Assembly: GCF_008831285.2 (NCBI RefSeq)
Contig: NC_045138.2
Span: 39,919,115 to 39,983,114 of the forward strand
Origin: Nymphaea colorata
Taxonomy: Eukaryota > Streptophyta > Magnoliopsida > Nymphaeales > Nymphaeaceae
Reading direction: 5' to 3'
DNA length: 64,000 nt
Each line of letters starts with the position of its first letter. The stretch's first letter is position 1. Under the pieces are notes generated by a model. That model saw only the letters and a list, made by a program, of their open reading frames with translations. It had not been told where the DNA came from and did no database searches. The position numbers and the translations under genes were made by a program. Positions 30,934 to 64,000 of the stretch are shown piece by piece.

Positions 30934-31505
30934 ATGATGGACGCAGAACCCGTGATCTTCTTCTTCCTCCTCCTTTTCTTCCTTCCCTCCATTTCCTCCC
31001 AAAGTCCACCTGCCAGGTTGCCTCCTAGCGAGGGTACGCCTCTTAAGCTTTCTCTCTCCCTCTCTTCTTCTTCTTCGAATCCCTGAACTCTTTTCGTCGT
31101 CGTTGTTTCGTTTGTCGTCGAGGTTTTCCAAGGAAACGGAGACGGACACTCTGGTTTCTGCTTGGTTGTCACGCACGCTATATTGATGGACGGGACTTGC
31201 ATTCTGCGATCGTCGTCCGGACCATCGGTCCTTTCTTCTTCTTTTCTCTCTCTCTTGATTCGATTTTGTGCATCATCATCTTGTCACTACTTCTCTCTCT
31301 TATATAAACTCGGAATGAGATCAACCAGTCTCGCCTCGTTCTCCTTTTTCTTTTTCATTACTCTGCCGACGACAGTTATACTGATTACGCAAAGATACAT
31401 AAATTAAAAAAAGCTTCAAGGATGATATATGTACGACCCCCGTTACTCTCATCTCCTTACGCGAGCACGTAATCATAATCATTGGCTGAGTGACAGCACC
31501 CTTTT

Positions 31506-31559
<54 letters not shown>

Positions 31560-31763
31560 TCTCACCATTGGAAGCACCTAACTTTTGAAGCGCAGTGGCT
31601 GCGCTCCAGCGATTTGCAGACATCTTGGGGAAGAAAGACTGGGACTTGAATGATCCGTGCAGAGGCGACAACGGAATTACTTGCTACTGCAACGGTACCA
31701 TCTGTCACGTGACAAGCATGTATCTCTCTCTCTCTCCCTTCTTTTAATTGATATCTACTAAGT

Positions 31764-31800
<37 letters not shown>

Positions 31801-34800
31801 ATCTTTTTCCTTGTTGGTGCTAATGTTAGGCTTACATGAATGCAACCAGAGTTCTGAAAGGGCAAGGGCTGCCTGGAACACTACCGAGAGATCTGTCAGG
31901 ATTGCCATATCTTGGGGAACTGTAACTTCTTTCTCTTCAACACCAAAATTTTTCCCTTTGATTCCCGGGCTTGTATTGAATGATCCGGAAAGTTTCTTAA
32001 GTGTTTAACTACAATTCTGCTTCTGCTGCCTTGTTTTGGCATTTCGAACATCAGGGATCTTACTCGCAATTACCTCTACGGATCGATACCTCCAGAGTGG
32101 GGCAAACTGAGACTTGTTAATGTGTAAGTAATGGAGTAATTGTTTCTTATATTTATTTCAAGATGTAGTTCGTTCTCAACAGTGCCTTTACTTATATCTG
32201 ATTAAACATCTCTTGTTGCATGCTCTCATTAATGTATATCTTGGTAAGTATATCGACAAAAGATGAAATTAGTTTCATTAATGTATATCTTGGTAAGTAT
32301 ATCGACAAAAAATGGAATTAGTTTCATAAAAATGATACTTGAAACTAAAAACAAAAAAGGCTTGTTTCGCACTGAAAAAAATTATAATAAGACACCTAAC
32401 TTTTAGACAAATAATAATGCTGCTCAACTTTTTAAAAGTTAATAAACAAGCGGCGCTCAACTTTTGATGGAAATTCTCATTGAACTAACTGTATCTACGT
32501 TAATATTTAATATAAGATGGCAAAAGTTCCTGTAAAGACTCGCTTCTCTCCTGGCTGATAAAATTAGACATTTAAGAGAGAGAGATTAGTCAATTTACAT
32601 AAAAAATTAGATATATAAGCCTTTCTTTGGCTCCTTCGATTTACATGCACGAATTAACCTTATGGGGAGTGAATCTTCTTCCACCACATTATATTAGGTC
32701 GCTCATGTCAAACCGCCTGTCAGGGCCCATCCCGAAAGAGCTAGGAGACATGATCACTCTTAAGAATATGTAAGTTTCCTCTCTTTTTTCTTTTTTTCCT
32801 GTTGGCCGCCCTAGAGTATTAATTTACCACTTTAACTGATCTTATGCGAATAAACTGCAGAACGCTTGAAGATAACGAGTTTTCAGGGCCACTTCCCCCA
32901 GAAATTGGAAATCTGAAAAATCTTGTGAGACTGTAAGAGATCTAGTTCCATAGTCAAACTGTGCTAGCCTTCTTCTTTTCTTGCTTAGTTAATTTGCTGA
33001 CGTTGGTTTGTATTCAATTTGAGCAGAATCCTCTCCTCAAATTACTTCACAGGACCATTACCAGCTACAATGAAAGAGCTAACGAACATGACGGACTTGT
33101 AATAATCAACTTTCCTTTGTTTTTCCAATTTTCTTTTATGGAACATGTATAGTTAATTCACATAAAACTAATGCCACAGATTACCATGTTTTAATGTGCT
33201 CTGTTTGTTGAAGCACACACTAGGTTTTGCATATTTATTTGAGACATGCAATAACTTTTCATCATATTATTAGAAATTATTGCAACTTTATTCCTTCACC
33301 TTTTTTAAGTACCAAGCACTGAACACCCACCCAGTATCTAAAGCCTTTTCATCTGTTGTGCAGTAGAATAAGTGATAATGGGTTTTCTGGGAAACTACCC
33401 GAATTCATCTTCACTTGGACTTCGCTCACAAGATTGTAAGTTGGTCCCTGATGCCACGTGAATCTCGTATATATCGAATACTAATGTTAACTAATTGATT
33501 ATGGTTTTTGGCTTTCTGGTAGGCAAATTCAAGGAACAAGTTTGACAGGTCCCATTCCTTCTAACATTGGTGCACTGGAAAATCTAACCCAATTGTATGC
33601 CTCTTTATCTGCTCTTTGCTGCTTTACTGTCCTTAATTAGGCTCTTATCCTTTGCGGTATGTCACCATGCTCTGTTTGATTGTAGGATAATGAGTGATAT
33701 AAAAGGGACGGGATCCAGTTTCCCAGATATAAGTCAACTAATGAACCTAACGATACTGTAAGTTGTATGAGCATAACTTTCTTGCTATGTATATGTTGAA
33801 TCTATAGATATTTTGTTCGCGGGAAAGAAAGAACTGACCTTCATTTGGTGAATGCTGTTGTAGAATACTAAGATCGTGTAACATTTCTGGGGAGATTCCT
33901 GATTATATTGGTCAAATAAAGAATCTGAAGACGTTGTAAGTCATCGTGTTGTTTAAAAAAGAAGAGAGAATTTTTTATTTGGTCTGTTTTTTCGATTAAT
34001 AATACATACCCTGTGCTATTCGTGCTTCCTTTCTCTCGACAGAGACCTAAGCTTCAATAACTTATATGGAGGGATTCCAAACTCTCTGAATGACCACAAA
34101 AAACTACAGCAACTGTGAGAATATCCTCACTCCAGCAAACAGTTCATTTGACAATCTTGGCTTCAGTAAAATGGATGCATGACCGTGTTACTTCTTTTCC
34201 ATTAGGTTCCTAACAAGCAACTATCTATCTGGCAGCATTCCAGAATGGATCATGACGCAGAACCTGAACAGGCAAGTTTATGTTGAACAATTCTTTATAA
34301 ATCCCTTCCGAGGAAAAGAGCAATTCGTTTGTAGCTTCTCTCTCTCCACACACAGATATATATATATATATATATAGAATGTGTTGTCTGCATTAGTTAC
34401 TGCTGCTATACTGTTTTTAGGTATATTAACTGTCGCTAAAAAGTACTGCTAAACATATTTTTCTCATAAAAATGCAAAATACTTGCACTCACTACTCAAA
34501 TTTTAGAAATATCACCAACGGAAGAATTTCTACCCCCATTTGCTATTTCAACTACATAACGTGTGGTAATTCTCAGAACTGTCAGTATATATTAACAGTA
34601 ACTACTGTTATTGTGAGAAACATGTGGCGTTGATCACTTAAGGCCAGTATTTCATAATGCTAGAATTCGTTGATGCGCATAACTCCTTGCTTAAGTTGAG
34701 TCTATTAGTATAGGATTACCTCATGTTGGCTGATTATGCGCCCAAGGGATTTTACCATTTCTTGCCGGTAGATCTTGCTTTGCAGTTTCGCTTTGGTGGA

Positions 34801-37800
34801 AAATGAGAGAAACGTTCATCTAGAGCATTCATTAAGGCAACCAAAATTTCTCAGCGTGCTGTCTAAATGACTGATTAATTAAGATGTAATTGCATGATAA
34901 TCAGCTGCAGAACCAAGGCAAATTAGTTGTGAACTTAAAATAGCATCATGTATATCATACATATATATGTGTGTGGATTGCCATCTATGTAGATAAAACT
35001 GTCACGGAGAATAGTTATCTTTTGTTCCTTGATACATTCAGGGTGAGTCCATGTTGTTGCCTGTTTTGTGTGAAATATAAATGCACAAAAGCTATAGATA
35101 TATTTTCATGTGTGAACACATACATGTCTACATGTACAGATGGCATTCTTTTCTTGTATATTTTTCCCATCGCCATTGAATCTTCCAGTCATTTTAGTTA
35201 TTTTTTGACATTGCCACGACTGCAATGGAACAGAGATTTGTCATTCAACAATTTTACAGACATAACCGGTAACGCGACAATTAGTTGTTCATCCACGAAT
35301 CTGTAAGGTTTTATTTTCCATTTTCAAGTTACAGAATGCTTATAGTAAAAATATCTCTCTAATAATCACTGCAACATCAATTTTCAGCAATTTGGTCGAG
35401 AGCTTTTCGTCAGTGTTGGAAAACCAGTAAGCTTTTTACTATACTCTGTAACCGAATAATGGTGTTTGTTAGTAACACATTATTAACCATTAATAATCCA
35501 ATCACTTCCAATCGTATTGAAACTTTATGCAACCATTTCCTGCCATGTTCTTTCCATTTCTTAAACTTGGATTTGAATATCTTGATGCAGAAGCAATATA
35601 ACTCCCTGTCTGAGGAAGAACTACCCTTGTGCTGAGAAAAGATGTAAGTTCCTTTTTCCCTTTTTATTCATGCCTTTATGGCTAATTATCAAGAAAAAAT
35701 TCATTTTTTAAACTACCAACAAGGAAAAATAAAAAGACTTCAGCATAAGTTTCAGATACCTTTTCATTCTCCAAATCTGAAAAATATGGTCCATTTGCAG
35801 TTTCCACTTTGTTCATAGACTGTGGAAGTCCAGCAGCAACTCCCATCGGAGCCATCAATTATGAGGCAGATGGCCAGAGTAAAGGTGCCGCAACATTATT
35901 CGTGAGTCCGAACAATAACTGGGCAATGAGCAGCACAGGGGTATATCTGGATAATGATGATGACAACGATGAGTACATAGAATATTCCAACAGTTCTCTC
36001 CTGTCCATGCCTAATTCAGAACTCTATAAGTCAGCACGTATAGCTGCAACTTCTCTCAAATACTACGGACTGTGTCTTTATGATGGGAATTACACAGTGA
36101 AGCTCCATTTTGCAGAAATAATGATAACAGATGAAAAGAATTTCAGCAGTCTTGGAAGGCGCCTTTTCGATGTGTACATCCAGGTGAGGTCACGTTCTGC
36201 GTCCACAGGGAGAAGTTAAGTAGTTATTCCTGATTCGATCTGAAAACATATTCTTCATAAGTGCAGGGGGAGTTGAAGCTCCAGGATTTCAACATAAAAG
36301 AAAGTGCCAATGGTTCTTTCAAGGATGTTACTAAAGTATTCCCTAACATCACCGTGACAAGCGGCAGTCTCAGGATCCACTTGTTTTGGGCCGGGAAGGG
36401 TACCACAGTGATTCCAAAAAGAGGAGTTTATGGGCCTTTGATATCTGCCATTACTGTGACTCCTGGTACGGCCGTTTTAGTTTGATATGTAAATATACAT
36501 AAGTATACTTGATAGAAACATGAAAAATGCAAGGTATAATAACTGGCCCTTAGCTGGTGTTTGAGATTTCTTCGTCCTCTACAGTTGTATGTGTATATAG
36601 TATATGATAGTGTCACTCGGACTGAAGAACAAACTTCACTTGAATTAGGTGCCATATACTGGTTAATGCATTCATTTTTCTAGCTAGAACATATAGATAA
36701 CAATAATATACATGTCACAAGTATCCGATATATCAGATGTGAAGCATGTTGGGATACTTGTTTATATGTATATGGAAAGTATACATATGAGTTGATCTTT
36801 ATGAAACAAATTTGAAGTGCATGCATAAAATAAACTGTAGGAACTGTTTACAATGTCCACGGACAACTGACCATTTCCTTTAACCATTTTGGACATGTTT
36901 ACAGAATTTGAGATTCCCAAGCGACCGGTGGACCGGACTGTTCTTGTAATTGTGGTTGTTGTTGCATCTGCTGCCGTGCTCATCATCATACTGCTCGCTG
37001 TACTTTATGCTCGCCGCCGGGCCAATCATGGTAAGAGTAGATGAGATTAGCTGACAACATAACTTTGCTTCTCACGCTAAAGAATAAGAAATTAAACGAG
37101 TAGTGAACGTATTTGACGGCTTAGACGCATGGACATAAAATGGGAATCCAGGAGTTTCATCGGTTTATAATCATTAGTTCACATCTATGTTTTACTTCAT
37201 TTGCAGTAAAACATATAGGCGGCCCCTTCACTTTGCGCCAAATAAAAGCTGCCACGCGTAATTTTCATCAGGACAACAAGATCGGGCAAGGAGGCTTCGG
37301 ACCAGTTTACAAGGTAGTACGACTCTTGGTCACAAGATGAATGCACTTGAACTTTTTACAAAGTGAAGTTAAGTTTCTGTGGTATAATAAAAAGATGTTT
37401 AAGTTTTTATTTCCTTCATATAGTAAGCCTGTTTCCGATGTAAGTTAGCTGGGCAGCTAGATAGAAGAAAATCAAGACTTAAGCAACTTTTTGTTATTAT
37501 AGTAACTTCGTATGGTCTCTAAAATCTCGACAAGAAAATCACTAGGTTTGGCAAAAATTTTTGATATTCGTCACTATGGAGCTATGCAAAACTTGTATCA
37601 TATATGATCAACCAGGTGCGATCATCATGTGGCATGTTTGGATAGTCAAGCTTCTTATCTTGGCCAATTTCAGGGTTGCCTACCAAATGGTACAGTCGTT
37701 GCAATTAAGCAGCTCTCAGCCGAATCATATCAAGGAAATCGTGAATATATTACGGAAATAGGTTTGATCTCTGCGCTACAACACCCAAATCTGGTGAAAC

Positions 37801-39245
37801 TTTATGGCTGCTGCACTGAAGGAAACCAACTCTTTCTTGTTTACGAGTACATGGAGAACAACTCTCTAGCTCATGTCTTGTTCAGTAAGCTTAATCAACG
37901 CTTGATTCTTGTTGCAAATATTATTCTTCTCTTTTTTTCGTTAGCATCTTGATGGCATGCCCTTCTGTGCAAAACAAAAACAGGAGATGGTCCAAAATTG
38001 GATTGGAATACGCGCCGAAGAATTTGCATCGGAGTGGCCAAGGGTCTGGCGCATCTCCATGGAGGAACTAGATTGAATATTGTTCATCGAGACATAAAGC
38101 CCACAAATATTCTGCTGGACAAGGATCTCAATGCCAAAATATCTGACTTTGGATTGGCGAAACTGGTTGAGGCTGACCGCAGAAGCAGAACGCCTGAAGT
38201 AGAAGAGAACAATGACCGCAGTACCCAGCAGGATGGAGATGAGATCAGTGTGAGCAACACCCAACTTGATGAAGATGGGAGTGGTGAGGATGGAATCGAA
38301 AGCAGCACCACCCTTCCTGATCAAGTCGAGCATTCCTACAACCAGAGAACCCGCATAGTTGGAACCGAGTAAGTTTCTCTTTTAGTTGGAGAGTAAGAAT
38401 TGATAAGTTTATACAGGTCATTTTACCATCTTTGTTACTACACAAATGAAAATTACTGCACTTTCGTTTCAGAGCAATACAGGTCTTTCTACTTTATGTC
38501 AATGTTCTTAAAAGTTCCTGAACATGCATTTCTTTTCAGGGGTTATATAGCACCTGAATATAAGAGGAGCGGTCGCTTGTCTTGCAAAGCAGATGTCTAC
38601 AGCTTCGGCATTGTCGTCCTCGAAGTAGTGAGCGGCAAGAGCCACAGAAGCTGGCACAGTGAAAAGTGCCTCCCCATGCTTGATTGGGTATCTCCTCTAC
38701 CACAGCCTCTTAAAATTATACCCTTTTACAGGTAATAACTTTCTGTTCTTCCACAGGCACTTGTTCTTCAAAAGAATGGAAGACTTCTGGAACTTGTGGA
38801 TCCAGAGCTGGGTGCAGATTTCTCTGAGGAGGAGGCCTATGTCCTTCTTGATGTGGCCCTGAGATGCATCGATAAGTCTCCCTCACAGAGGCCTGACATG
38901 TGCACAGTGGTGGGCATGATGGAGAACCAAACTCCCATGAAACCTCAGCCTGTATCTTGCAAGGAGAAGAAGACAGTACCCTCTGAAGTTGAAATTGAGT
39001 ACAGCCAGTCCCAGTATAGCTGGGTTCGGGACGAAAGCCAGGATGGACCATGGACTGCTTCCATGTCAGGCACCAGTATGGACTACACAGACAGTGGTGT
39101 TAATCCTACATTGCGGGAGGACTCTCATCCTGTGGATATTGAATCCGGCCGCCGCCGCCGCCGATATACCAAGAACCAGAGGACCAAGTCCGTCGAACAT
39201 CGTCCGTCGTGGTCTTCATGCTATTCTGGTGGCACCAAGAAGTAA
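30934..39245 (+). CDS. LRR/malectin-like receptor kinase A (LRR-VIII-2 type)
   Basis: Single-pass plasma-membrane Ser/Thr kinase, 1071 aa. The 24 exons join in phase: 30934-31033, 31596-31719, 31850-31921, 32055-32123, 32698-32769, 32861-32932, 33027-33098, 33364-33435, 33523-33594, 33686-33757, 33864-33935, 34043-34114, 34206-34271, 35234-35302, 35388-35426, 35591-35643, 35801-36183, 36267-36465, 36905-37030, 37207-37313, 37674-37884, 37984-38368, 38540-38687, 38757-39245. Order: signal peptide ([14 protein letters not shown]), LRRs about 75-336 (most on their own 72-nt exon), malectin-like domain about 390-583, TM about 598-618, kinase from about 640. Motifs: [15 protein letters not shown] (Lys673), [14 protein letters not shown]. 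Residues 793-853 form a 61-residue acidic Ser/Thr-rich activation loop, where gene B has 9. Intron 34272-35233 has a GC donor. The tail carries five Arg codons (GCC/CGC run). The ligand is unknown. Confidence 0.93.
31508..31555. repeat. (TA)n microsatellite in kinase A intron 1
   Basis: About 24 TA units lie 40 bp upstream of the acceptor of exon 2. A second TA run (31766-31798) lies in intron 2. Confidence 0.9.
38166..38348 (+). other. Expanded activation loop in kinase A
   Basis: These 61 in-frame codons lie between the DFGLAKL segment and TRIVGT. The equivalent loop of gene B is nine residues (DEDENALNN, 51118-51144). The exon is 156 nt longer than its gene B counterpart (385 versus 229), with unchanged phase and flanking splice sites, so the extra 52 codons are a true in-exon insertion. 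The segment is rich in Asp, Glu, Ser, Thr, Asn and Gln. It contains [11 protein letters not shown], which resembles gene B's [11 protein letters not shown], suggesting growth by duplication around that point. Confidence 0.9.
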
Positions 39246-41996: not shown

Positions 41997-44900
41997 ATGA
42001 TGACGAAGAAGACGATGAAGAGGAACGCCAGGCCTGTGATTGTCCTTCTCTGCTTCTTCTTCCTCTTCTTGTGCCCTTCTTCCTGTCAAACGCCAACCAA
42101 GTTGCCGCCGGGCGAGGGTACGCGACTTTGCTTCTTCTTCTCTTTTTCACGTTGGCGCGTTCGGAACCCTTTGAATTGCCTCGTCGTGAAACACGGATGA
42201 TTAGTAATTTCATAAGTGAAATGCGAGCGACAGTTATTGCAAAGGACTGGTGTTAAATGTCGATGCTCCAAAAAAGGTTCACTCCAAAGCAAAACGAAGG
42301 ATTTCATTCATCTTAGATGAATAGATTTAAAAGAAAAGATAGATGATGATGAAGATGACGATGTCATTAGGCGATAGCTACTTGCATGATTTTGTCAATT
42401 TTACATCTCCCATTTTATTCAGAACTTATTGGCTTTATTGAATAATCTTTATTCATGACTAAGAAAATATAGGAAAATTTTGTTTTCCGTGACAAATTTA
42501 GTTGTTATAAATTGAGAGCATTGTAAAGATTATAGCTGACATCCTTAATCCAGGTTTGTTTTGAACTACGAATACTCTTCCATAACGTTTAAATGGGCTT
42601 TTCCTAGATGAACTAGCATGTAACATAGCTGATCAGACTTGTTTCATCTAAAGTTTCCTTCGTTTTGAAGTTTATTCATTCGTTGACTTTATCTTTAGCG
42701 CATATATATATATAGCGCTCATGATTGAGAGTTGCAATCTAAGTAAAGTTCGCTTAAGATTTTATTTTATTGTCTAGTGGTGGTTCAAGCTGCTTGACGC
42801 GTACTGGATTTATTTGTTAATTCAAATTAATATAGAGTTTAGCATACCAACATTCAAGCTGTGTCCAAACAAGATCTGATGGAGTGCGGTTGGATCCAGA
42901 TCTATGATGGTGTGCGGTTGGATCCAGACCTGGAGCGTAGTGCGTGTGTGTATATCCTAGCTTGTAGCACCCCAAGCGTTTAATCTTATATCTAAAATTG
43001 TGAACAATTTTGGTGGGTTTATAAAAGAAATTGTTAAGCAATTGGTTGTTTTGGTTCCTCACCTTTTTTGGGACGGTAACCAAAGTTGGTAAGAATAATT
43101 TGAGATCTACCATATCAAGAGCCTATTAATTTGGTGGTCCATCTAAAAGGATTAAGTTTTCTGAATGGTAACATGCAAATGTTTGAGCATGTTTAAAATA
43201 GAGGAAAAACTTTTACACAGCAAAAAAAAAACATTCATCTTAGTTCTGTTATCGAGTAAAATGTTTTCCCATAAGAACGTTTCACTGTCATCCCAATTAC
43301 TTTGATTTCAAACATGGGTGAAGTTTTTCTTACCATAGCTGGGATTTTTTTCACCTCATTTCACCTGGAAAGGATTCGGCCGGGGCAAAAACTTGGAGGT
43401 GAAATTTTCAGCTCTGCAGTAAAAAGACATCTCGACGGGCTAAATTATCACTCTTTACGAAGCTTTTCTTCCTTGTTTTGAAATTGCGTACTCTTAATCG
43501 TTGGTGAAATTATGGAAGCAGTGGCTGCGCTGCAGCAGATAGGGAAGATCCTGGGGAAGACGGACTGGGACTTCAGTGTCGACCCATGCAGCGGTAAGTC
43601 GGGATGGACGACCCTCCGGCCTCAGAAGGGATTCGAGAATGAGGTCGGCTGCGATTGCAACAATACCGTCTGTCACGTCACCAGAATGTACGTACAACTC
43701 TTTCTCGCTTTTTCTCACACGTTACCTAAAAGTTTTGCACTTTTTACTTTCCTGTTCTTCGCCGGTAACAATTACAATACTGGCTTTAAAGGGCATAGCA
43801 TCATTGGTTGGTTAGATAGGTGAGCACGTAAAAGGAACATTGTAGTTTGATTTATGTGAATGTTATTTTATTGTATTATATTATAGATGAAGTGATTGTG
43901 GCACTTTAATTTAATTTATGTGTGTTTACTTATGTCCTAACTTTAGATATGTCAACATATTCGATTTGGATCGCCTATCAAAATGAATTGTTTCGAAAAA
44001 ATGGGATATGAAAAGACAATTAATATTTGATTAAGAAATTATATCAAATTAATATTTGATTAAGAAATTATATCGATGAGATTCAGATTTGGATCCTGAT
44101 ACATATAAGTATCTGACCGAATTTGGAGATAGATTAAAATTGAATTAAACAAATAACTTATATTAAGTGCTCTCGTATGTTGAAAATTGGTCAAATTTGG
44201 TTCAAAATTCGGATTTGGATATGAATGTAAAATTCAAATTCACAAGAAATTGGATTTCTTATTCAGATTTTATTTTTTTCGTACTCAAATTCAATTTAAT
44301 ATTTGAAAAGACATACAATTAAGAATATATCCGATTCAAATCCAGAAGCGAATTTAGGATGTTGAGGAGGGGAAGGGTGGTGTTGAGACTATTTTTATTT
44401 GTTTAAGGATGAAGGTTGTAGACATTGTGCTCACCTCAGTAATACTTGCAATACAGATTCCTGAAAACTCAAGGCCTAACTGGGACGCTACCGAAAGATC
44501 TATCGGGACTTCCATTTCTTGAACAATTGTAACGTATCCCATTACCATCTGATCCTTCCAATCTTCGGTGCATTTATGATTCACAAGAACTTCAATTGCA
44601 AATTCATTGTTCTGCTCTAAATATTAGGGATCTTACTCGGAACTACCTCTCTGGACCAATACCACCAGAATGGGGCTCACTCCGGCTCGTTAACGTGTAA
44701 GTGAATCTTGAGCAACCACGCACCGTCATTTCTTAATCTTTGTCGAACTGCTTTTCACTTTAGTTAGAAATTTGTTTTGAAAATTTAACACCTAAAATTT
44801 ATTGACGTTACTCAGCATTATATATACATGTATATAATCCTCCTCATTTTGTTTTCCTGAATCACTATAGGTCACTCATGTCCAATCGCCTCTCAGGGCC

Positions 44901-47900
44901 CATCCCAGAAGAACTTGGAAACATGATCTCTCTAAAGAATATGTAAGATTGAAATTTTACTCCCAATGTCTGTAGTTGTGCTTGTATCATATGCATCCAT
45001 TGCTGCTTTTGACTTTGTCCAAATGGAACAGAACGATTGAAAATAACCAGTTCTCCGGACAACTCCCACCACATATTGGAAATTTGACAAATTTAATCAG
45101 ATTGTAAGTTTACTATCCTGTCGCCTGTTTACTTATACTTGGTCTGTTTCTGGTATAAGATTACTAATGTTCGTGACATTTGATCTGAACGTAGGATAAT
45201 CTCATCAAATAATTTTACAGGAGAGCTACCGGCAACATTGGCAAGGCTCAAAAACATGACAGATTTGTAAGAAGTCGCTTTATTTTTCAGTCCTATTGCT
45301 TTTGACGAGGACAGACCTGAGCTCATTTCGACAAAAGACCTACACCCGTGACCCGAGTTCCATAGCTTTGCGTTCGCTACCACTCCGCGTTAAGAACACC
45401 ATTTGAAAATATGATTTTCTGCATCTTTGAGGGCATTGACGGATTCCACTGTAAAACATTCTCATAAAATCCACTATGCGCTTTTCAATTTCTCCACTTT
45501 AGAAGTCAAAATTAACATGCCAAGCATGGTTATTTATTCGAGGTCAGATGATCTTTCAATTTAGTTAGTCCCAAGCATGTATACCTCCCTGCAAAAGAGC
45601 CATGTATGAATTCAACTGTATATATAAAACTAACTAAATCTCTTTCACCTATCATGCCGTAGGATATATAAAGCTAATTAAATCTCTTTAATCATTCATG
45701 CCGTAGGATATATAAAACTAATTAAATATCTTTCATATGCAGTCGGATAAGTGACAATGGTTTTTCCGGAAAACTACCTGATTATATTGGGAACTGGATT
45801 CAACTGAATAAATTGTAAGTGTTACTGCTATCTTATTTCATGGTGAGTTATAAGTCCTCTTTAGAATGTGATGGGTTTGTTCTTTGTCATAAGAATGATC
45901 CAAGGAACAGATCTCGAGGGCCCTATTCCTCCCCTTGGTTCACTAAAGGGCCTTACATTCTTGTAAGTATTTTCCTTCTCTTTTTTAAAGTCCAAAAGAC
46001 TAGATTGGAGTTAGACATCACTATGAGAACGATTTTGTGCTCCATCTGAATGCAGAATGATTAGTGATATAAAAGGAACAGGTTCCAACTTCCCTGAGTT
46101 GAGCCAAATGAGTTTGGTCAGACTGTAAGTAACCATCTCTTTCCTTTTGTTATGTGTAAACATGATGCTTTCGAGGAAGGTGTATGTAAAGCTTGGGAGT
46201 TCCTTCCAAATAAAACGATTAATCTTGTCTTTTTGCTTTAGGATACTAAGAAATTCAAATATCTCTGGTGAAATCCCAGATTATCTTGGTGATATGGGAA
46301 GTCTGGAAATCATGTAAGTTGTATATTATCATTGAATAACATCAACGAAAAGAAATGTTAAAGCTTATATGCTTTGGTACTAGCTAAGACTAGTTCATAC
46401 ATGGTTACTACCCTTTTCTTTTACGGCAGAGATCTAAGCTTTAATCACCTGTCTGGTACTGTTCCAACTTCATTAATAAATCACAAAACCTTACGTAACA
46501 TGTGAGTATCATTATCAAAGTTCATTGCAATAAAGTTTGCATAAAGTTCTATATATAGGCCATTATGTGTATACATGTCAATGTGAATACTACATTCTGT
46601 TTTCTAGGTTCTTAACAAGCAATCAACTAAATGGCCCCTTCCCTGAATGGATCTTCAAGACGCAGTTCAAAACGTACGTTGCTCTTGCTCTTCAATACTT
46701 TCAGTTTTATTTTGGGAATGCTATTTTCACCTTTTTTTCACCTACTTTTTTCTCTTTTCGCTTCATTTTCTTCTCAAACCGTGGTTTATCTTAAGATTGG
46801 TGGAACTTAATCGAAAGAAAAGGCCTGAAAAACCAGCTGTTCTAAAATTATATTGACTGATTGACTCGAGGAGATGAACTCATATTCCTTCTTTGGCTGT
46901 TTTTCTCCAATAAAGTAACACGTTGAAGCTGCTCCTGCAGGATGACATCATCAACCTTAATGCCCCTCAATATTTACATCTTTTTATCTTGTAAAATTTG
47001 ACTTTGCTATTCCATTTTGACTTATAAGTTATTGACCTTTGAACAGAGATTTGTCGGTCAACAGTTTCACATCAACAGCTTCTGAAGGGTCGTCTTCCTG
47101 CCAAGTGCAAAATGCGTATGGACTTTTCTCTTTCTTTTTTGGGAATAGAGGTGGTCTGGTCCTGCTGGAGCACTAATTCAAATATATTTCTCCATTGATT
47201 GCTTTTCTTTCAATTTTTAGCAACTTGGTTGAAAGCTATTCACCAGCAACCGTGAACAGGTAAGCTCTTCCAGCTACTCTGACATTGCGTGTTGGGATTT
47301 TTACAACCTAATCTACTGTCAATCGCATTGATGTACATGAAAAATTAACCTAATAGATTCTTAATTTTTCTTTAAAAAAACTGAAATTCATGCAGCAAAG
47401 AAATATGTTCTTACTGGATTAATAACTTCACTTGCTCCGGAAAAAGAAAATGTAAGAAATATTTGGTACTTTTTCCTTTCTCATAAATTTCTAGCAAAAA
47501 TAGTTTTATGAAGCTTATTTAACATATTACATCGTTTTGATGTATTCATCGCAGATTCATCGTTTCATATAGACTGTGGAAGTAAGTCTCCCACCACCTT
47601 TGAAGGCACAACCTTTGAAAAAGATGGAGTAGTTGGTACTGCAACATTCTTTGCGAGTGAGAGTGAAGCATGGGCAATGAGCAGCACGGGTGCATACTTG
47701 GATAATGCTGATGTAGCTGATGATTTCACAGCTACCAACTCTTCGATTCTATCTATTCCTGATGCAGCAATCTATACCACAGCACGCCATTCTCCAATCT
47801 CCTTCAAATACTACGGACTCTGTCTCTGGGATGGACCTTATACAGTAACACTCTATTTTGCAGAAATAATGTTTACGGATGACAAAAACTTTAGCAGCCT

Positions 47901-50900
47901 TGGCAAGCGTGTTTTTGACGTATATATACAGGTGAATTTTCACAAGCGTGGAAGGAGCTTGCAAAAACGTTTTGCTGCTTATTCTAAAAATATGTAAAAT
48001 GCAGGATAAACTAGTGCTTAAGGATTTCAACATAGAAGATGCTGCTAATGGACCTGGCAAGGCTGTTACTAAGAAATTCTCTGCCAATGTGACAAGTGGA
48101 GTTCTAAGGATCCATTTCTTTTGGGCTGGGAAAGGCACCACTGTGGTACCACTGAGAGGAGACTATGGTCCTTTAGTGTCTGCCATTTCAGTTGATGCTG
48201 GTAGGACTCTTTTCCTCTTCTTGACTTTAAGATATAAATGGACCTCATACATGCAGATCAGGAGTTGTTAGGTTAAGAGAAACCAAGGATAATTGCTGAC
48301 AGAATTGGTTGCATAGTTGCAACGGTGATGAACATTAGATCATTAAGGTAGACAAGGAAGAGAAATAACTTGGTTAAAATGAAGGTCAAAATCTCAACTA
48401 TCATGACAAACTCGGTTTTAAACAGTTTTAGAATTCATTTACGTGTGTGTTTCATTACTTCATACTTAAAATCCAAGGATTTGATGTGGATGTAGTACGG
48501 CATTTTCTTTACTCATGTGGCAAAACATTCATTGTAAAATCCATAGTTGATCAGACTAGGAATTTTAAATCTACACTCAAAATCCTTATTCTACCTTCTT
48601 AAAGGTCAGATTTAAGTTCAGATGGGGAAGGGTCCGATCTTAAATTCACGGTTTTCAAAAACATCTTAGGCATTTGATTACTTCAGATTTGAAATTTACG
48701 GATCTGATGTGAAACTAATGTGGTATGCTTTTGTTGATGTGGCAAACGATCCATGATAAAATCTATAGTTCATCAAAGTAAAATCTTAAAATGAAACCCA
48801 ATATCCAAACTTAGAACCACAGTTTTACAGTTTTACTTTGAGAAAATGTATGATTTAAGATCAAGAGGGGCTCTGATCTTAAATCTATGGATCTCAATAA
48901 CAGAGAATTTTAGATCGGGGCAATCAAAAGCCCCCTTAGTTTCTAGTCTTCATGACAAGAGTCGATATTGGTGCATAGTTTGCCGAAGTAGAAAAATTCA
49001 ATTTAGGCCTTCGCAGCGTGCCTAAGTTTGAACCAGCTTCTTGCCACCCGCTCTACAGGGTAGATGTAGCATGATTCTCGCACTATTTGTGTATCTTCAC
49101 CACGCACCTACAAATAAACTCGAATGCATATGCGCATGCAAAAATGATGAATTTTAATGATCTTAACTGCTGATGAATTTCATTTTATAAAATACAATAA
49201 TTTAAAGCCTTTAATTTAATGCTACCCTCGTAGTTCATGATAAATTTGATAATTATCATAAGATGGAGTCATTCATCTAAGGCTAGGGTAAGTGTTCAAT
49301 AAAATACAATGCGTATTTGCGTTTCAAAGATATAGATATGAACAAAGGCAAGCATTACATTTCTATAGTATTGAACATGTGCAGGAGAGAGAGAGAGAGA
49401 GAGAGAGAGTCTAGTTTTAGTTTTCATGCCGCTAAATTTGCACTTTCTAGAGCTACAGTGGTACCTGCTTACATTTTCAATGACTAATCAGTCTCTTCTT
49501 TCTGGGCATGCCTGATGGTGAAGACTTCGTACCTCCAAAGACCATTGAGAAAAATACCACCAAAATTATTGTGATTGTCGTTGCGTCGATTGGAGTGCTG
49601 TTGCTCCTAATTCTGGGAAGCCTTTGCGTATTCTCAGTACTCAAGAGAGGTAAGAATAGATCAGGATCCGTGGAATAACTTTTTTACGTGACGTCATATT
49701 TACAAATGAAATAACTTTTACGTGACGTCACCTTTACAAGCTCTTCTTCAAAGGAAAAGAACAGGCGAAACGACAGTGGTTCCGAGGATATTTGCTAAAT
49801 GTTTCTTCCATGTGCAGGTTTTGGAGAACGTGATAGAAGTAGTACTTTCACCTTGCGCCAAATACAGGCTGCTACAAGGAACTTTCATCCTTCCAACAAG
49901 ATCGGACAAGGTGGATTTGGGTTAGTGTACAAGGTATGTATGACTTCAAAACAATGAAAGAGAAAATAAACGCGTCTGTATGGCAACCTGGTCAAAGACA
50001 TATCAGGTTTTTTCGAAATAAGTGTTTTATCAGTTATTTTCCCTTTATATAAGAATTCATCAAGAAATCCAAACAAAGCAAAAATTCTGCAACAAAACCG
50101 CTCATTCCTGGTAATGCGAGGGAAACCATCGAGAAGCTACTGCACATCGTAAAGATTCATGACATTAGTAGAGCTATTCCCCCATTTGGTTATGATAACG
50201 AAGACATCCCCGTTTGGCCCTGGCATTGGAGAAATGCAATAAATAATTATCATTGCCCAATTTCCCATGTCCTCTAAAACATGCTGCGATTGTATGCCAT
50301 TGTTTGGGGCTTGTTCTTCTCTTTCTCATGAGGGTTGCTCTTTCTGAAGCACATGTCACTCTAATTTGAGCAAGTGTAAATATTGGTAGCTTTTGATGGT
50401 TAATGTAACTTGAACATCTTGCTTATTGTTGTTGCTACTGTGTTCTTTTGGAAAAAAAAAAGGACTGTACTAAATGTTAACTGAGTGCAGCTTAAAACGG
50501 TGAAGATAGTTGCAGACGGACAAATTATAGTCTTTCAGAATTCTACCATACGTATCAATATCCTCATTGACTTAACACGTGAAGTGACAGTGCAAAATTT
50601 CTTCTGTACAATGCAGGGACAGCTACCAGATGGGACCATTGTTGCAATAAAGCAGCTGGCACCCAAATCGCGGCAAGGAAACCGTGAATTTATCACCGAG
50701 ATGGGCATGATTTCAGCATTGCAGCACCCAAATCTAGTAAAGCTTCACGGTTGTTGCATTGAAGGCAATGAACTCTTACTGGTCTACGAGTACATGGAAA
50801 ACAATTCCCTTGCTCATGCTTTGTTTGGTACGCTTGAAGATCGCAAGAACTCTAGTTACTTCCGCTTACTCGTTTCCCTTCTTGCTTTAATTAATTTGTT

Positions 50901-51252
50901 TATGGATGTGCTTTCTTTTGCAAAATCGAAGCAGAAAATGGGCTGAAACTGAACTGGCCTACACGCCGTAAAATATGCATTGGAATTGCTAAAGGTCTGG
51001 CATATCTCCATGAGGAATCTAGACTGAAGATAGTTCACAGAGACATAAAAGCTTCAAATATTCTGCTCGACAAGGATCTGAATGCCAAAATTTCTGACTT
51101 CGGCCTGGCCAAACTTGATGAAGATGAGAATGCCCTGAACAACACCCGAATAGTTGGAACTCAGTAAGTTGCCAATGTTCCCTTTTCTTTCACAAAAGCC
51201 AATCCTTCTGATGTTCTGTGGGTATGTGTAAGTGTGGGTTTGTGGTGCGTGC

Positions 51253-51301
<49 letters not shown>

Positions 51302-52397
51302 GCTTGCAACCTATGAACATTACTTTGCACTTGGTTTTTTTTGACGTTGTGTGGATCATAGTCTCACCATTGACTCGTCGCCAAAAGTGATAAGCTACCT
51401 CACTTCCACAATGAAGTAGCCTGTGGAATACATGTTCCTATGAGAAGAGAACGAAAGGCTTGTATATTAGACGTAGAGTTCTCAACTTTCATTTAAAAAA
51501 TGAATTGTACTTCACCCCTGCATAAAAGCCATTGTCCTCTAAATTTTCCCAAAAAGAAAACAAGTATGGTACAACAAAAAATGCCTTTAAGATACTACTG
51601 TTTCCTCATGTTGACAAGGTTTCCCTATATTCATACTTCATCGTGCTGCTAACATCCTATCTTTGCAGGGGCTACATGGCACCTGAATATGCCCTGCATG
51701 GCGAACTGACATGTAAAGCAGATGTTTATAGTTTTGGTGTTGTTGCTCTTGAAATAGTTAGTGGAAAAAGCAACAAAATGAAGCACTCAAGAGAATGCAT
51801 GTACCTGCTGCAATTGGTACGCTACTTCACTCTACTCAAATATCCAATTGCATTAACTGTCCCTTCTCTATCAACAATGACACCGTCCTTCGACAGACAT
51901 ACCGCCTTAAAGAAACAGGAGATCTCCTGAAGCTTGTGGACCCAGAGTTGGGTGCAAACTTCTCTAAGGAGGAAGCCCTGGTTATTCTGAATGTGGCTTT
52001 ATTGTGCACCAATGCTTCGCCTTCACTTCGGCCCGATATGTCAAAGGTGGTGGACATGATTGAGGGTAAAATTCTCATTGATCCTCAATCTGTGTGTTCT
52101 ATTGAAAAGGTGGATAGCACCATTATCCACTTTAGCGAACCTCAACACAGCTGGACGCTGGACAACAGCCAAGAAGGACCATGGACCAGGAATACCGCAT
52201 CATCAATTTCAATGGCGAGCAAGGAATCCACAAAAGATGGACAGACTGTAACAGAAATCTCTGAGGACCTGCATCCAAAGGACGCAGAACTAGATTATCC
52301 TCGCAATCATCCCAATTATGTGATGAGCCAAACTCGCAAGAAATCATCCCCATGGGGCCCATGTTGTTCCGGTGGTAAGGCGCAACAATCTCCATGA
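41997..52397 (+). CDS. LRR/malectin-like receptor kinase B (LRR-VIII-2 type)
   Basis: Tandem paralogue of kinase A, 1043 aa. Exons: 41997-42117, 43522-43687, 44457-44528, 44628-44696, 44871-44942, 45032-45103, 45195-45266, 45743-45814, 45894-45962, 46056-46124, 46242-46313, 46430-46501, 46608-46673, 47047-47115, 47221-47259, 47396-47451, 47555-47931, 48005-48200, 49524-49649, 49818-49933, 50617-50827, 50935-51163, 51669-51816, 51897-52397. Order: signal peptide ([16 protein letters not shown]), LRRs about 96-355, malectin-like domain about 410-600, TM about 615-640, kinase with [15 protein letters not shown] (Lys693), [11 protein letters not shown] and GYMAPEYA, then a Ser-rich tail. All kinase residues are present with a normal short activation loop. 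Start choice: ATGs at 41964, 41997 and 42015 are all in frame; 41997 is used, but gene C favours 42015. Long introns are 42118-43521 and 48201-49523. Confidence 0.93.
45621..45747 (+). repeat. Tandem 44-bp repeats at the acceptor of kinase B exon 8
   Basis: Three units, each starting TATATAAA(A/G)CTAA and ending near CATGC(C)GTAGGA or GCAGTCGGA, run up to the acceptor of exon 8 (45743). The last unit is the real splice site (atatgcag). The first two read GCCGTAGG in place of GCAGTAGG. Confidence 0.8.
48440..48920. repeat. Degenerate direct repeat in kinase B intron 18
   Basis: Two units of about 230-240 bp are recognisable by paired blocks: ATGTGGCAAAACATTCATTG and ATGTGGCAAACGATCCATGA, then AAAATCCATAGTTGATCA and AAAATCTATAGTTCATCA, then GGGTCCGATCTTAAATTCA and GGCTCTGATCTTAAATCTA. 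It is non-coding and of unknown class. A GA run lies downstream at 49385-49409. Confidence 0.55.
51252..51302. repeat. (GT)n(GA)n microsatellite in kinase B intron 22
   Basis: A GT run (about 51252-51274) followed by a GA run (about 51275-51302) lies roughly 90 bp after the donor of the activation-loop exon. Confidence 0.9.
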
Positions 52398-57577: not shown

Positions 57578-58851
57578 CTGGCATATGAAACTCAGGCCTG
57601 CGACTGCCTGCCCTATGACCTTCCCTTTTTCTCACTCAGAATACGTGCTGCTATCTTAAGAGTTAAGTGACTCTCTCTCTCATATGCTGACTTTCCGGTA
57701 TCTTAATTGTTAAGTGACGCCATCTCTCTCTCTCACTCATACTCTACTGTGCTGAGTTTGACATATAGTTCAATTATCATTGGCTACGTCTTTAGTAACA
57801 TTGATGATTTCTCTTTCTTTTTCTCTCTCTATTCTATTCTGTTGTTTGGTGACGCTTTGTCACCGCAGTTTGAATGAATTTTCATTTTGTCTCTCTCTCT
57901 CATGTCATGTTGACTTTGAAGTTAAAAGCCTGTTGACAGAAATTTTTAACCAAATACGTGCTGCTATCTTCATGATTTCTCTACTGCACTATTTGCTTAT
58001 GTGGGTGAGTGGGATGTTACTGCATCATCCAATGAATCAACCCTCCTTTCCCCTTGATCTCAAGGTCTAGCGCTGTGTCGAGGCCACTAACCAAGCAATG
58101 AGATAACAACTTGTTGGGCGCTCGAATGAGTGTCAGTAGATCGGATTCAGATCAGATATACTTTTAATCATATCTAATTTTTAGATAATTTCATGTTCAT
58201 ATTCGAATTTAAATTCAAATATGAACGAAGAAATCATATATGAATCAGTGTCTGAATCCAAAATCTGATTTTACAATTCAAATCGAATACTAATCCAATT
58301 TTTAAGTTCACATCCGAATCAGAATTTGGAATCTGATCGATTTTTAAATGTGAGGGAGTTGGTATAAGATATTTGTTTCAAATTAAATCTGATCCCAATC
58401 TGAATTTGAATTTGATCGGATACTTATGGGATCCAAATCTGATCACATGTCATTTCTTAAATTTAAATTTCGTAATTGGATATTATTTTTTTATACCAAA
58501 CGATTCAATCAAAATATCCGATATATTGACATTCCCACTTGCCGGTCTATCTGTGATAGACCAGCACCACGAGCAGAGTTGACAATCGTGGTCCACGACT
58601 CCACTGTATTCACGAAGACTTAAGTTGTTGATTGAAAAACAAGTAAGATGCTTGCATATCCTCCTCGTCTTCCTGTTACCAAATAAATTACATGGTTTCA
58701 TGGCGGTTGCTGCGGCCGTCTTCCCGGGAGCATTTACGATTAATGCTGGTCCTGGTTTGCCAAGCATGAGCCGCTGAGAGGCAGGCGCAAGGCGGATGAA
58801 TGAAGTAGCAGCGCCGACGGCGATGATGATGTGAAGCTCACGAAGAAGAAG
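57018..58851. other. Gene C upstream region
   Basis: A long TA run lies at about 57519-57575. From about 57670 the sequence aligns with the gene B upstream region, including the AATCCGA-type repeat (58140-58540) and GAGTTGACAATCGTGG near 58577. A short upstream frame of 12 codons (58796-58834) ends before the gene C start. Confidence 0.5.
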
Positions 58852-59533
58852 ATGATGGGGAAGACCAGGCCTGTGATCGTCCTTCTCTACTTCTTCTTCC
58901 TCATCCTGTGCCCTTCTTCCTCCCAAACACCTACCAAGTTGCCGTCGGGCGAGGGTACGCGCCTTTGCTTCTTCTTTTCCTTATTCTTGACGTTCATGCG
59001 TTCCGAATCCTTTGAACTGCATCGTCATGAAACGTGAATGATTAGTAAGTTCATGAGTGAATCGCGAGCGACAATTTTTGCGCAGGACTTGTTATAAGTT
59101 TATGCTCTAAGAATAATTACTCGAAACCAAAACGAAGGATTAGTTCATTCATTTTAGAAAAATATATCTTTTTTTTTTTTACACAAAAAGATAGATGATA
59201 GATGAAGATGACGATGTGATTAGGACAGAACTATCATCTTTAATCCATGAGAAAATATAGGAAAAACTTGATTTCTATGACCAACTTATTTGTTATAAAT
59301 TGAGAGCAAACTGCCGGATATTGTTAAGTTTTAACTGTAAAGATTATACTTGACATCCTTAATCCAGGTTTGTTTTGAACTACAAATACTCTTTCATACC
59401 GTTTAAAGGGGCTTCCTATATGAAACATCTCTTTCTCTAATTAATTGTCATCTAGCATAGCTGGTCAGACTGGTCCCATTCCTGTGGGCATTACATGTTG
59501 GCCGGTGCTGAGGTAAAAAGTCACGATGGTGGT

Positions 59534-59570
<37 letters not shown>

Positions 59571-62500
59571 TGCACGCGCACTAAAATTACCTTGTTCTCC
59601 AAATTGGCACTTTTCGTCATTAATGTCTGTAAACGGTGGATCTAAGTGGAGTTTCATCTAAATTTCCCTTTGTTTTGAAGTTTATTCATACGTTGACTTT
59701 ATCATGTGTCACCTTTTCAAAGAATGATTACAGCAGTATTCATATATATATACATATATGTATATATATATATATGTGTGTGCGCGCTATATGTCGAGAG
59801 AAGCGCTCATGATGGAGAGTAGCAACCTAAGTAAAGTCCCTTAATGCTTATTTTTTAGTCTCGTAGTGGTTCAAGCTGACTGACGCCCATTGGATTTATT
59901 TGTTAATTCAAATTAATGTAGAATTTAGCATACTAATATTCAAACTGCGTCCGAACAAGATCTTATGGCATTCTGTTGGATCTAATCTAGACCGTAGCGT
60001 GTGTGTGTATTCTAGCTTGTAACACCCCAAACGTTTAAATCTTATATCTAAAATGTGAATAATTTTGGTGGGTTACAAAAATTATTGTTAAGTGATTAGT
60101 TATTTTGATTCCTTTTTTTTTTTTTGAATTGAAACCAAAACTAAAAGTAGGTCGAGATCTACCAGACTAAAAGCCCATTAATTTTGTGGTTCATAGGATC
60201 AAGTTTTTTTTTGTGGTAACATGCAAATATTTGAGCATATTTAGAATAGAGGAAAGATTTTTACCCAGGAACAAGTTCCTCCAAGTTTTGTTATCGAGTA
60301 AATTTTTTTCCACAAGAACGTTTCTCTGCCATCCCAATCAAGTGTGATGATTTCATCGTCTAAAGTTCTTTTCACCATAGCGCGTATCTTTTTCATCTCA
60401 TTTCACCTGGAAAGGATTCGCCCGGGGCGAAAATTTCAAGGTGAAATCTTCAACTGTGCAGTAAAAAGACAACTCGACGGGCAAAGTTATCAATCTTTAC
60501 GAAGCTTTTCCTCCTTGTTTTGAAATTACGAACTCTTAATCGTTGGTGAAATTATGGAAGCAGTGGCTGCGCTGCAGCAGATCGGGAAGATCCTGGGGAA
60601 GAGGGACTGGGACTTCAATGTCGACCCATGCAGCGGTAAGTCGGGATGGACGACCCTCCGGCCTCAGAAGGGATTCGAGAATGAGGTCGGCTGCCTTTGC
60701 ACCGATGCCGTCTGTCACGTAACCAGAATGTACGTGCAACTCTTTCTCACACACGTCACCCAAAAGTATTGCACTTTTTGCTTTCCTGTTCTTTTCTCTC
60801 TGGCAACACTTACAATACTGACTTCACAGGACATAGCATCGTTGGTTAGATAGTGATAGACCAGCACCTAGAACATTGTTTTGATTCACGTTGATGTTAT
60901 TTTACTGGTGGATCATAAATAAAGTGATTGTGGCACTTTAAGTTTTGAATACACCGCAGGTCCTAGATGTTAATATATTTGATTTGAATCGAAAGAACGG
61001 TTTCAAAAAAAATTGAACATGAAAAAAATATATATATCCGCTTAAAAAATTGGCTTGAATTTGAATTTGAGAATTGACATATGATCATATTCGAACTTGG
61101 ATCGTGATACACATAAGTATCCAATCGGTTTTGGATATGGATTAAAATTGAATTTATTTTAAATAAATATGTTATATTCAATGCCAAATTCAGTCAAAAT
61201 TCAGATTTGGATATGAATGTAAAATTCAAATTCATGCGAAATTGGACTTCAGATTCATATTGAGATATGACTTTTTTTTTTGTATTCAAATTCAATTAAA
61301 TATCTAAAAAAACACATATGGTTAATATGGTTAAGGGTATATCTGATTCAAATTAGATCCATACTTAGAGGCAAAAGGAATTTAGGATGTTGAGGGGGAA
61401 GGGTGATGTTTAGACTATTTTTATTTTTCTAAGGATGTGGGTTGTAGACATTGTGCTCACCTGAGTAACATATGCAATACAGATTCCTGAAAACTCAAGG
61501 CCTAACTGGGACGCTACCGAAAGATCTATCGGGACTTCCATTTCTTGAACAATTGTAACGTATCCCATTACCATCTGATCCTTCCAATCTTTGGTGCATT
61601 TATGATTCACAAGAACTTCAATTATTCAGTTGCCAAATTCATTGTTCTGCTCTAAATATTAGGGATCTTACTCGGAACTACCTCTCTGGACCAATACCAC
61701 CAGAATGGGGCTCACTCCGGCTCGTTAACGTGTAAGTGAATCTTGAGCAACCACGCACCGTCATTTCTTAATCTTTGTCGAACAGTTTTTCACTTTAGTT
61801 AGAAATTTGTTTTCAAAATTTAACACCTAAAATTTATTGACATTACTATATACATGTATATAATCCTCCTCATTTTGTTTTCCTGAATCACTATAGGTCA
61901 CTCATGTCCAACCGCCTCTCAGGGCCCATCCCAGAAGAACTTGGAAACATGATCTCTCTAAAGAATATGTAAGATTGAAATTTTACTCCCAATGCCTGTA
62001 GTTGTGCTTGTATCATATGTATTCATTGCTGCTTCTGACTTTGTCCAAGTGGAACAGAACGATTGAAAACAACCAGTTCTGCGGAGAACTTCCACCACAT
62101 ATTGGAAATTTGACAAATTTAGTCAGATTGTAAGTTTACTATCCTGTAGCCTGTTTACTTATACTTGGTCTGTTTGTGGTATAAGATTACTAATGTTCCT
62201 GGTATTTGATCTGAACATAGGGTCATCTCCTCGAACAACTTTACAGGACCGCTACCAGCAACATTGGCAAGGCTCACAAACATGACCGATTTGTAAGAAC
62301 TCTCTTTATTTTTCAATCCTATTACTTCTGACGAAGACAGACCTGAGCCAAGTGCCGGAACCGATGCAGTATCACCGACCATTTGGTCAAGAACACCGTT
62401 TCAAAATATGATTTTCATAAGACACTGCATTGTGGGGCATTGACAGATTCCACTGTAAAATATTCTCATGAAATCCACCATGCCCTTTTCAATTTCTCCC

Positions 62501-64000
62501 TTTTAGAAGTCATACTAAAAAGCCAAGCGTGGATATTCATCAGCAGCAGAGCGGATTATCTTTCAATTTAGTTAGTCCTACGCGTGTATACCTGCCTGCA
62601 GAAGAATCATATATGGCTTCAACTGTATATATAAAGCTAACTAAATCTATTTCATTCGTCATGCAGTAGGATATGTAAAACTAACTAAATCTCTTTCATC
62701 TGTCATGCAGTAGGATAAGTGACAATAGTTTTTCTGGAAAGCTGCCTAATTATATTGGGAACTGGACTCAACTGAATAAATTGTAAGTGTTGCTGCTATC
62801 TTATTTCATGGTGAGTTATATGTCCTCTTTAGAATGTGACGTTGATTTTTGTTTTTTGTCATATAAGAGTGATCCAAGGAACTGATCTCGAGGGCCCTAT
62901 TCCTCCCCTTGGTTCACTGAAGGGCCTTACATTCTTGTAAGTATTTTCCTTCTCTTTTTTAAAATCCAAAAGACTGAATTTGAGTTTGACATCACTATGA
63001 GTATGATTATGTGCTCCATCTGAATGCAGGATGATAAGTGATATAAAAGGAGCAGGTTCCAACTTCCCTAAGTTGAGCCAAATGAGTTTGGTCAGACTGT
63101 AAGTAACCATCTCTTTTCTTTTGTCATGTGTAAGCATGATGCTGTCGAGGGAAGGTGTATGTAAAGCTTGGGAGTTCCTTATCCAAATAACTGATTAGTG
63201 TTGTCTTTTTCTTTAGGATACTAAGAAATTCAAATATCTCTGGCGAAATCCCAGATTACCTTGGTAATATGGGAAATCTGGCAATCATGTAAGTTGTATA
63301 CCATCATTCAATAACATCAAAGGAAACAAATGTTAAGGATTATGATCGTCGGTATTAGCAAAGATTAGCTCATACATGGTTACAACACTTTTTTGGCAGA
63401 GATCTAAGCTTTAATCACCTGTCTGGTGCTATTCCAAATTCAATAAGAAACCTCAGATCCTTACGTAACTTGTGAGTATGATTGTGAAGTTCATTATAAT
63501 AAAGTTTGCATAAAGTTCAATAGGCCGTCATGTATATACATGTCAAACTGTGAACACTACATTCTGTTTTGTAGGTTCTTAACAAGTAATCATCTGTCTG
63601 GCCCTGTCCCTGAATGGATCTTGAAGGCGCAGATATCCACGTATGTTGCTCTTGGTCTTCATACTTTCAGTCTTATTTTGGGAATGTTTTTTTCACCTAC
63701 TTTTTTCTCTTTTCTCCTCGTTTTCTTCTCAAACCGTGATTTATCTTAAGATTGGTGGATCTTAATGGGAACAAAATCTGTTCTAAAATTATATCGGCTG
63801 ATTGACTCAAGTACTGGAACTCATCTTCCTTCTTTGGCCTTTTTCTCCAATGAAATAACACGTTGAAGCTGCCCCTGCAGGATTAGATCAACAAGCTAAA
63901 TGTCCCTCAAATTATTGCACTTATTATCTCTAAAATTTGACTCCACTAATCCATTTTGACATATAAAGTTATTGGCCTTTGAACAGAGATTTGTCGGTCA
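58852..64000 (+). CDS. LRR/malectin-like receptor kinase C, cut by window end
   Basis: Closest relative of gene B. Exons seen: 58852-58954, 60564-60729, 61483-61554, 61663-61731, 61897-61968, 62058-62129, 62221-62292, 62711-62782, 62868-62936, 63030-63098, 63217-63288, 63400-63471, 63575-63640 and 63987 onward. Every exon after the first has the length and phase of its gene B partner, and no stop or frameshift is visible, so the gene looks intact as far as shown. It encodes a signal peptide (VIVLLYFFFLILCPSS), the paired N-terminal Cys region ([15 protein letters not shown]) and eleven LRR exons. The malectin-like, TM and kinase parts would lie beyond 64000. The start is the ATG at 58852; the ATGs used upstream in gene B are lost here through an 11-base difference. 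Large parts of introns 3-6 are nearly identical to gene B, pointing to a recent duplication or gene conversion. Confidence 0.9.
62627..62715 (+). repeat. Duplicated splice-acceptor unit in kinase C
   Basis: Two 44-bp units end in the same GTCATGCAGTAGGATA. The second is the acceptor of exon 8 (exon starts 62711). The first gives an equally good AG at 62665-62666. Use of the first would read AGG ATA TGT AAA ACT AAC TAA and stop. Confidence 0.8.

Follow-up and report, generated by a model that had tools for sequence, protein, structure and literature searches.

Gene A, a receptor kinase gene of Nymphaea colorata, encodes 61 residues between DFGLAKL and TRIVGT in the activation loop of its kinase (aa 792-852; 38166..38348, + strand, from the spliced model compared with that of gene B), where its tandem paralogue, gene B, has 9 (DEDENALNN). 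Positions here and below are those of the window, the whole stretch of 64,000 nucleotides that was analyzed. The activation loop is the place where such kinases are switched on. The extra sequence appears to have arisen, at least in part, by internal tandem duplication of a 36-nt loop unit of the B type; this is well supported for the core of the loop, in which about two copies are certain. The explanation that we favor, and consider probable, is that the product of gene A is a functional LRR-malectin receptor kinase, in which a piece of the activation loop was duplicated in tandem and in frame, on the A branch, to form a flexible appendage that could be phosphorylated. What is new here is the type of receptor, the origin by local duplication and the occurrence in a single gene.

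Gene A and its tandem neighbors

Gene A (30934..39245, + strand) consists of 24 exons encoding 1070 aa. The original prediction of an open frame was borne out, in that the 24-exon spliced model is open from end to end, and Pfam matches in its translation include LRRs, Malectin (PF11721) and a protein kinase domain (Pkinase). The splice sites are AG acceptors and GT donors, with a single exception, a GC donor at 34272. This donor (CAG/GCAAGT, 34271-34272) belongs to intron 13, and gene B has GT there. A hydrophobic stretch of 23 residues, visible in the translation, is a candidate transmembrane helix between the malectin and kinase portions. The kinase has the motifs GQGGFG, VAIK, HRD (aa 765), DFG (aa 785) and APE. 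The kinase motifs had been described as intact, and the VAIK lysine, HRD, DFG and APE are indeed present, but the lysine is residue 672 in this model and not 673. Two Pfam kinase models match the kinase region, each in two stretches. Their best matches end at aa 797 and 799, which would fit a kinase domain split by the extended loop.

The lengthened segment lies in exon 22, which runs from the catalytic loop to the activation loop and is 385 nt long in gene A (37984..38368, + strand) and 229 nt in gene B (50935-51163, + strand). The net gain of gene A over B is 156 nt, or 52 codons. In both genes the exon has AG and GT sites, is entered in phase 1 and is left in phase 2, as calculated from exon lengths. 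The 52-residue in-frame insertion, the exact position of the 61-residue loop (38166-38348) and the agreement of splice sites and phases with gene B were all predicted correctly. A stop-free frame of 146 residues lies antisense to this exon (37941-38381, - strand) and is probably due to chance.

Gene B (42000..52397, + strand) also has 24 exons, with exon 19 starting at 49524, and encodes 1042 aa, with an open frame throughout and a loop of the normal 9 residues. The exon structures of A and B match, both spliced models being open end to end, and Malectin is also matched by the frame of gene B exon 17. A third tandem paralogue, gene C (58850..64000, + strand; start approximate), is cut by the end of the window, and its kinase exons, which lie downstream in locus L002, were taken from the genome. 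Its loop is single-copy (KIDGDENAQNST), with DGDENAQNS following KI at the loop position. There are thus three tandem LRR-malectin receptor kinase genes, occupying 30934-64000 of the window and continuing in L002. B and C are nearer to each other than to A; their loop units are alike in 32 of 36 nt, and their exon 22 proteins are ~93-94% identical.

CORK1 is an LRR-malectin kinase of the LRR-VIII-2 subfamily. Among the LRR-VIII-2 receptor kinases of Arabidopsis are LMK1 and LIK1 (PMC7145971). Gene A shares with these kinases the combination of LRR, Malectin and kinase, it is an RD kinase with HRD, DFG and APE, and it has two like neighbors in tandem. By its predicted architecture gene A fits an LRR-VIII-2 receptor kinase, as described for LMK1. 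The long activation loop lowers the case for membership slightly; loop length is a property of the relatives and not a formal criterion.

Elsewhere in the window, a frame on the - strand (21014-21994) encodes a glycosyl hydrolase 17 of the beta-1,3-glucanase type (Pfam PF00332, E 2.9e-106). An equally long stop-free frame lies opposite to it on the + strand (21005-21985). The plant organelle RNA recognition (PORR) domain is matched by a frame at 1035-1616. No Rfam family was found in the 64,000-nt window at the gathering threshold.

Activation-loop length in related kinases of the genome

The genome from which the window comes (407.8 Mb, 783 contigs) was searched with gene B exon 22 as query. 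The best 150 of 1260 first-look candidates were scored, and the loop was read in all 150. These places probably include other kinase families, and two of them (L121 and L122) have identical translations; their number is not a count of LRR-VIII-2 genes.

Among the 150 scored places, the best of the 1260 candidates, a long loop is present only in gene A. The related kinases of this genome hardly vary in the length of the activation loop: in 147 of the 149 other scored places, 14-16 residues separate DFGLAK, or its equivalent, from GT. The extension that makes the loop of A 52 residues longer than that of B is absent from all of these 147 places. In the remaining two, L048 and L072, the frame is lost just after DFG and loop length is not measurable. 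These two loci (C14:1245900-1246700 and C4:4366100-4366900, respectively) are kinase copies with a broken frame and are possibly pseudogenes. Gene A itself (L026) has 66 residues from DFGLAK to GT by one pattern; a looser pattern cut it to 38. Seven of the 150 places were not parsed by the loop pattern and were then read by eye. By-eye reading gave 15 residues for L047, L060, L070, L121 and L122, with an altered GT in L047 and L060. L035, shortened by the pattern, also has 15 by eye, as do L099 and L109 by alignment. Some of the surveyed places, for example L113 and L136, have GS in place of GT.

The original prediction knew of no standard member of LRR-VIII-2 with such a loop. That is true of the places examined in this genome; outside the family, long inserts have been published for the RLCK XI and AGCVIII kinases. 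In the titles and abstract openings of the matches listed in the open-licence literature, no LRR-VIII-2 kinase is reported to have an activation loop of increased length.

Origin of the additional loop sequence

The single-copy loop unit of gene B is 36 nt long and encodes 12 residues (51111..51146, + strand). When this unit is aligned wrap-around to the gene A loop, it covers 38168..38283 (+ strand), with 80 matches in 119 columns and a score of 70. Codon shuffles of the loop gave 21.5±4.5, with a maximum of 52, and 0 of 3000 reached 70. The corresponding unit of gene C scored 58, compared to a shuffle maximum of 52 (n=1000). The clearest copy is that of the 3′ part of the unit, 10 residues at 38232..38261 (+ strand), which matches gene B at 22/30 nt and gene C (DGDENAQNST) at 21/30 nt. 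It is directly adjoined by the start of the next copy, QLDEDG (38262..38279, + strand), with 16/18 nt matching gene B (KLDEDE) and 14/18 gene C (KIDGDE). The end of one copy (...NT) therefore meets the start of another (QLDED) at 38261/38262, and across this junction (38232-38279) 38 of 48 nt match gene B, close to the 77% identity seen in the adjoining upstream part of the exon. The internal duplication hinted at in the original prediction is real and was understated, the ten residues that precede QLDEDG being part of it.

The score was also compared with other sequences. Among 1330 windows of 192 nt on both strands, those containing the B unit itself scored highest (76), followed by the loop windows (70 and 62) and then by a value of 42. 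A coding-sequence background, from which windows with the loop core or CTTGATGAAGATG were left out and 464 were kept, gave 54 as its best remaining score, from gene B's own unit, followed by 30 and 28. At a lag of 12 codons the codon self-similarity of the loop was 0.43 vs. 0.29, a value reached by 0 of 3000 shuffles at that lag; over any lag from 6 to 32 the peak is weaker, being reached by 64 of 3000.

Toward the ends of the loop the likeness fades. The score of the first third (KLVEAD...STQQ) against the unit was reached by 87 of 1000 shuffles, which is not significant, and that of the last third by 7 of 1000, a modest result. Since the net insert of 156 nt does not correspond to a whole number of 36-nt units, duplication of a 36-nt unit would need further insertions or deletions. 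The outer parts would be heavily eroded copies, or else sequence of another kind. Neither Tandem Repeats Finder nor a second repeat finder detected a repeat in the loop, the one family reported by the latter lying in the next intron; presumably the copies are too diverged.

The extension can be placed with a tree of exons 21-24 without the loop, built from 25 loci after one of 26 (L029) was dropped for having too few columns. Among these unnamed paralogues A is sister to B+C, with a support of 0.926. The branch of A is long (0.307), compared to 0.014 for B plus 0.089 for the B+C stem, and with this topology the loop extension would most simply have arisen on the A branch.

Two other accounts of the sequence were considered. 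The insert might have been captured from elsewhere, from a transposable element or another gene, with its likeness to the loop unit due to chance. The first third, which is not significantly like the unit, would permit this. Against capture, the likeness of the core to the paralogous loop greatly exceeds that of shuffled sequence, the phase is correct and there is a tandem junction. Moreover, when the genome was searched at the protein level with the loop plus flanks, two candidates were obtained, and gene A itself was the only match at E <= 0.001. We judge capture very improbable. Alternatively, part of the loop (38250-38345, 32 residues) could be an exitron, alternatively spliced to give two receptor forms. 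With a splice-site matrix built from the 46 introns of genes A and B, the best-scoring frame-preserving GT-AG pair inside exon 22 is that at 38250..38345 (+ strand; 96 nt; donor 6.7, acceptor 0.9). Its donor is near the median of true sites (7.2) and its acceptor just above their 5th percentile (0.5; median 6.1). In-frame GT-AG pairs within a coding exon are common by chance, and the presence of this one is weak evidence. Roughly half of the exitrons that have been published have a length divisible by three, and exitron splice sites are weaker than those of retained introns (PMC4484396). In Arabidopsis, disordered regions and phosphopeptides are overrepresented in exitrons of 3n length (PMC4484396). 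Given these descriptions, an optional loss of the 32 residues is conceivable. Composition argues the other way. Exitron GC is described as lower than that of exons (PMC4484396), whereas the G+C share of the loop exceeds that of the rest of exon 22, and T makes up 15.3% of the loop compared to 36.4% of the gene A introns. The composition of the loop is thus exonic, not intronic, and the likeness to exitrons lies in the possible frame-preserving pair within one coding exon. Moreover, the loop sequence is accounted for by duplication of coding DNA. For these reasons an exitron is considered unlikely. An intron comprising nearly the whole loop (38166-38345) was rejected, having a donor score of -5.6; its removal would leave 1 residue, compared to 9 in the relatives.

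Other kinase inserts and the possible role of the loop

The loop was predicted to be acidic and to contain Ser and Thr, and this agrees with its composition: 17 D/E, 5 K/R, 8 S and 5 T in 61 residues. Relative to the charge-hydropathy line it lies on the disordered side, and the flanking parts of the kinase lie on the folded side. There are four S/T-x-x-D/E motifs and one TP, which are pattern matches without an estimate of chance. The loop alone had no match among solved structures at E values up to 10.

Insert architecture at this position in the kinase is not new in kind. In RLCK XI, a kinase insert domain (KID) of ~199-527 aa, with a mean of 280, lies between subdomains VII and VIII (PMC9992409). 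It is conserved across land plants, has nuclear localization signals and is found in non-RD cytoplasmic kinases (PMC9992409). In contrast, the insert of gene A has 61 aa, well outside that range, occurs in one gene, is acidic, belongs to an RD receptor kinase with HRD at aa 765, and comes partly from its own loop sequence. With respect to nuclear localization signals, and on composition only, the 5 Lys/Arg among its 61 residues form no basic run. The AGCVIII kinases have, between their DFD motif and T-loop, an insertion domain, or T-loop extension, of 36-118 aa; in some of them it determines localization (PMC3499706). In D6PK, an AGCVIII kinase, the insertion domain controls localization, and serines beside acylated cysteines are phosphorylated (PMC10881395). 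This insert is typical of the whole AGCVIII group, with its DFD motif, whereas gene A has DFG (aa 785) and is of another kinase group. Nor is an origin by tandem duplication, as found for part of the gene A loop, mentioned for the AGCVIII insert in the portions of these two reports that were available (PMC3499706; PMC10881395). Gene A is a member of neither group, given its HRD and DFG motifs, its LRR-malectin ectodomain and its loop of 61 residues.

The sequence of events that we favor is as follows. After the split from B and C, a 36-nt piece of exon 22, which codes for the first half of the activation loop, would have been duplicated in tandem on the A branch. Replication slippage or unequal exchange is the probable mechanism, and divergence of the copies would have followed. 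The outcome would be an acidic and probably disordered insert of 61 residues that separates the magnesium-binding DFG strand from the TRIVGT/P+1 segment. As the duplication kept the reading frame and is followed by the conserved TRIVGT...APE, closure of the catalytic core could still take place despite the insert. With TRIVGT-APE unchanged after the loop, the kinase would be expected to be competent in catalysis, the acidic insert forming a loose appendage. By analogy with the RLCK XI and AGCVIII inserts, this flexible and potentially phosphorylated appendage may tune activation or bind partners. The original prediction also named substrate docking as something that the loop could change. Activation-loop phosphorylation of BRI1 and BAK1 is required in brassinosteroid signaling (PMC10317173). 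Given that requirement, extra phosphorylatable residues could tune the activation of gene A or recruit a partner.

The main alternative is that the loop is a neutral expansion, disordered and tolerated, with no selected role. It is a possible explanation, less likely than the one just given. Inserts are found at the same position in other plant kinases, the long loop is present in one gene only, on a fast-evolving branch, and nothing points to selection on the loop itself. Against it, the copies have diverged strongly without loss of the open frame, gene A is intact with a constrained kinase, and the loop is biased to acidic residues and Ser/Thr, although the single unit is already acidic. In a further and improbable reading, gene A is a decaying or dead kinase, and the loop grew after constraint was lost. 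The long kinase branch would fit, as would the whole-gene dN/dS of ~0.22. Decay is opposed by the 24 open exons, the presence of the catalytic motifs and a dN/dS of ~0.12 for the kinase without the loop, from a comparison with B in which 192 of 264 residues are identical (dN 0.19, dS 1.65). With dS near saturation, this pairwise ratio mixes old and recent constraint and weighs less against a very recent loss, which would escape it. The kinase core is intact and, by this measure, appears to have been under constraint.

If tandem duplication built the loop of a functional kinase, as we favor, it could also have copied a phosphoacceptor. In the wrap-around alignment Thr823 (38259..38261, + strand) occupies, within the duplicated copy, the place of the loop threonine Thr853 (38349-38351), which precedes RIVGT and which we take to correspond to Thr450 of BAK1. 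By eye, the diverged outer segments of the loop also end in Thr. We offer only as a doubtful suggestion that duplication of this residue has produced a multi-site, graded or decoy switch. If true, multiplication by a kinase of its own activation-loop site would be a route of evolution in kinase regulation that is undescribed in the available portions of the literature examined.

In-frame duplication of the switch in a constrained receptor provides one concrete route by which kinase insert domains may begin. Genes A, B and C together offer a ready comparison of a long and a short loop within one family. Should the loop prove to be phosphorylated or to bind a partner, the wiring-in of a new regulatory loop could be followed in gene A as a simple system.
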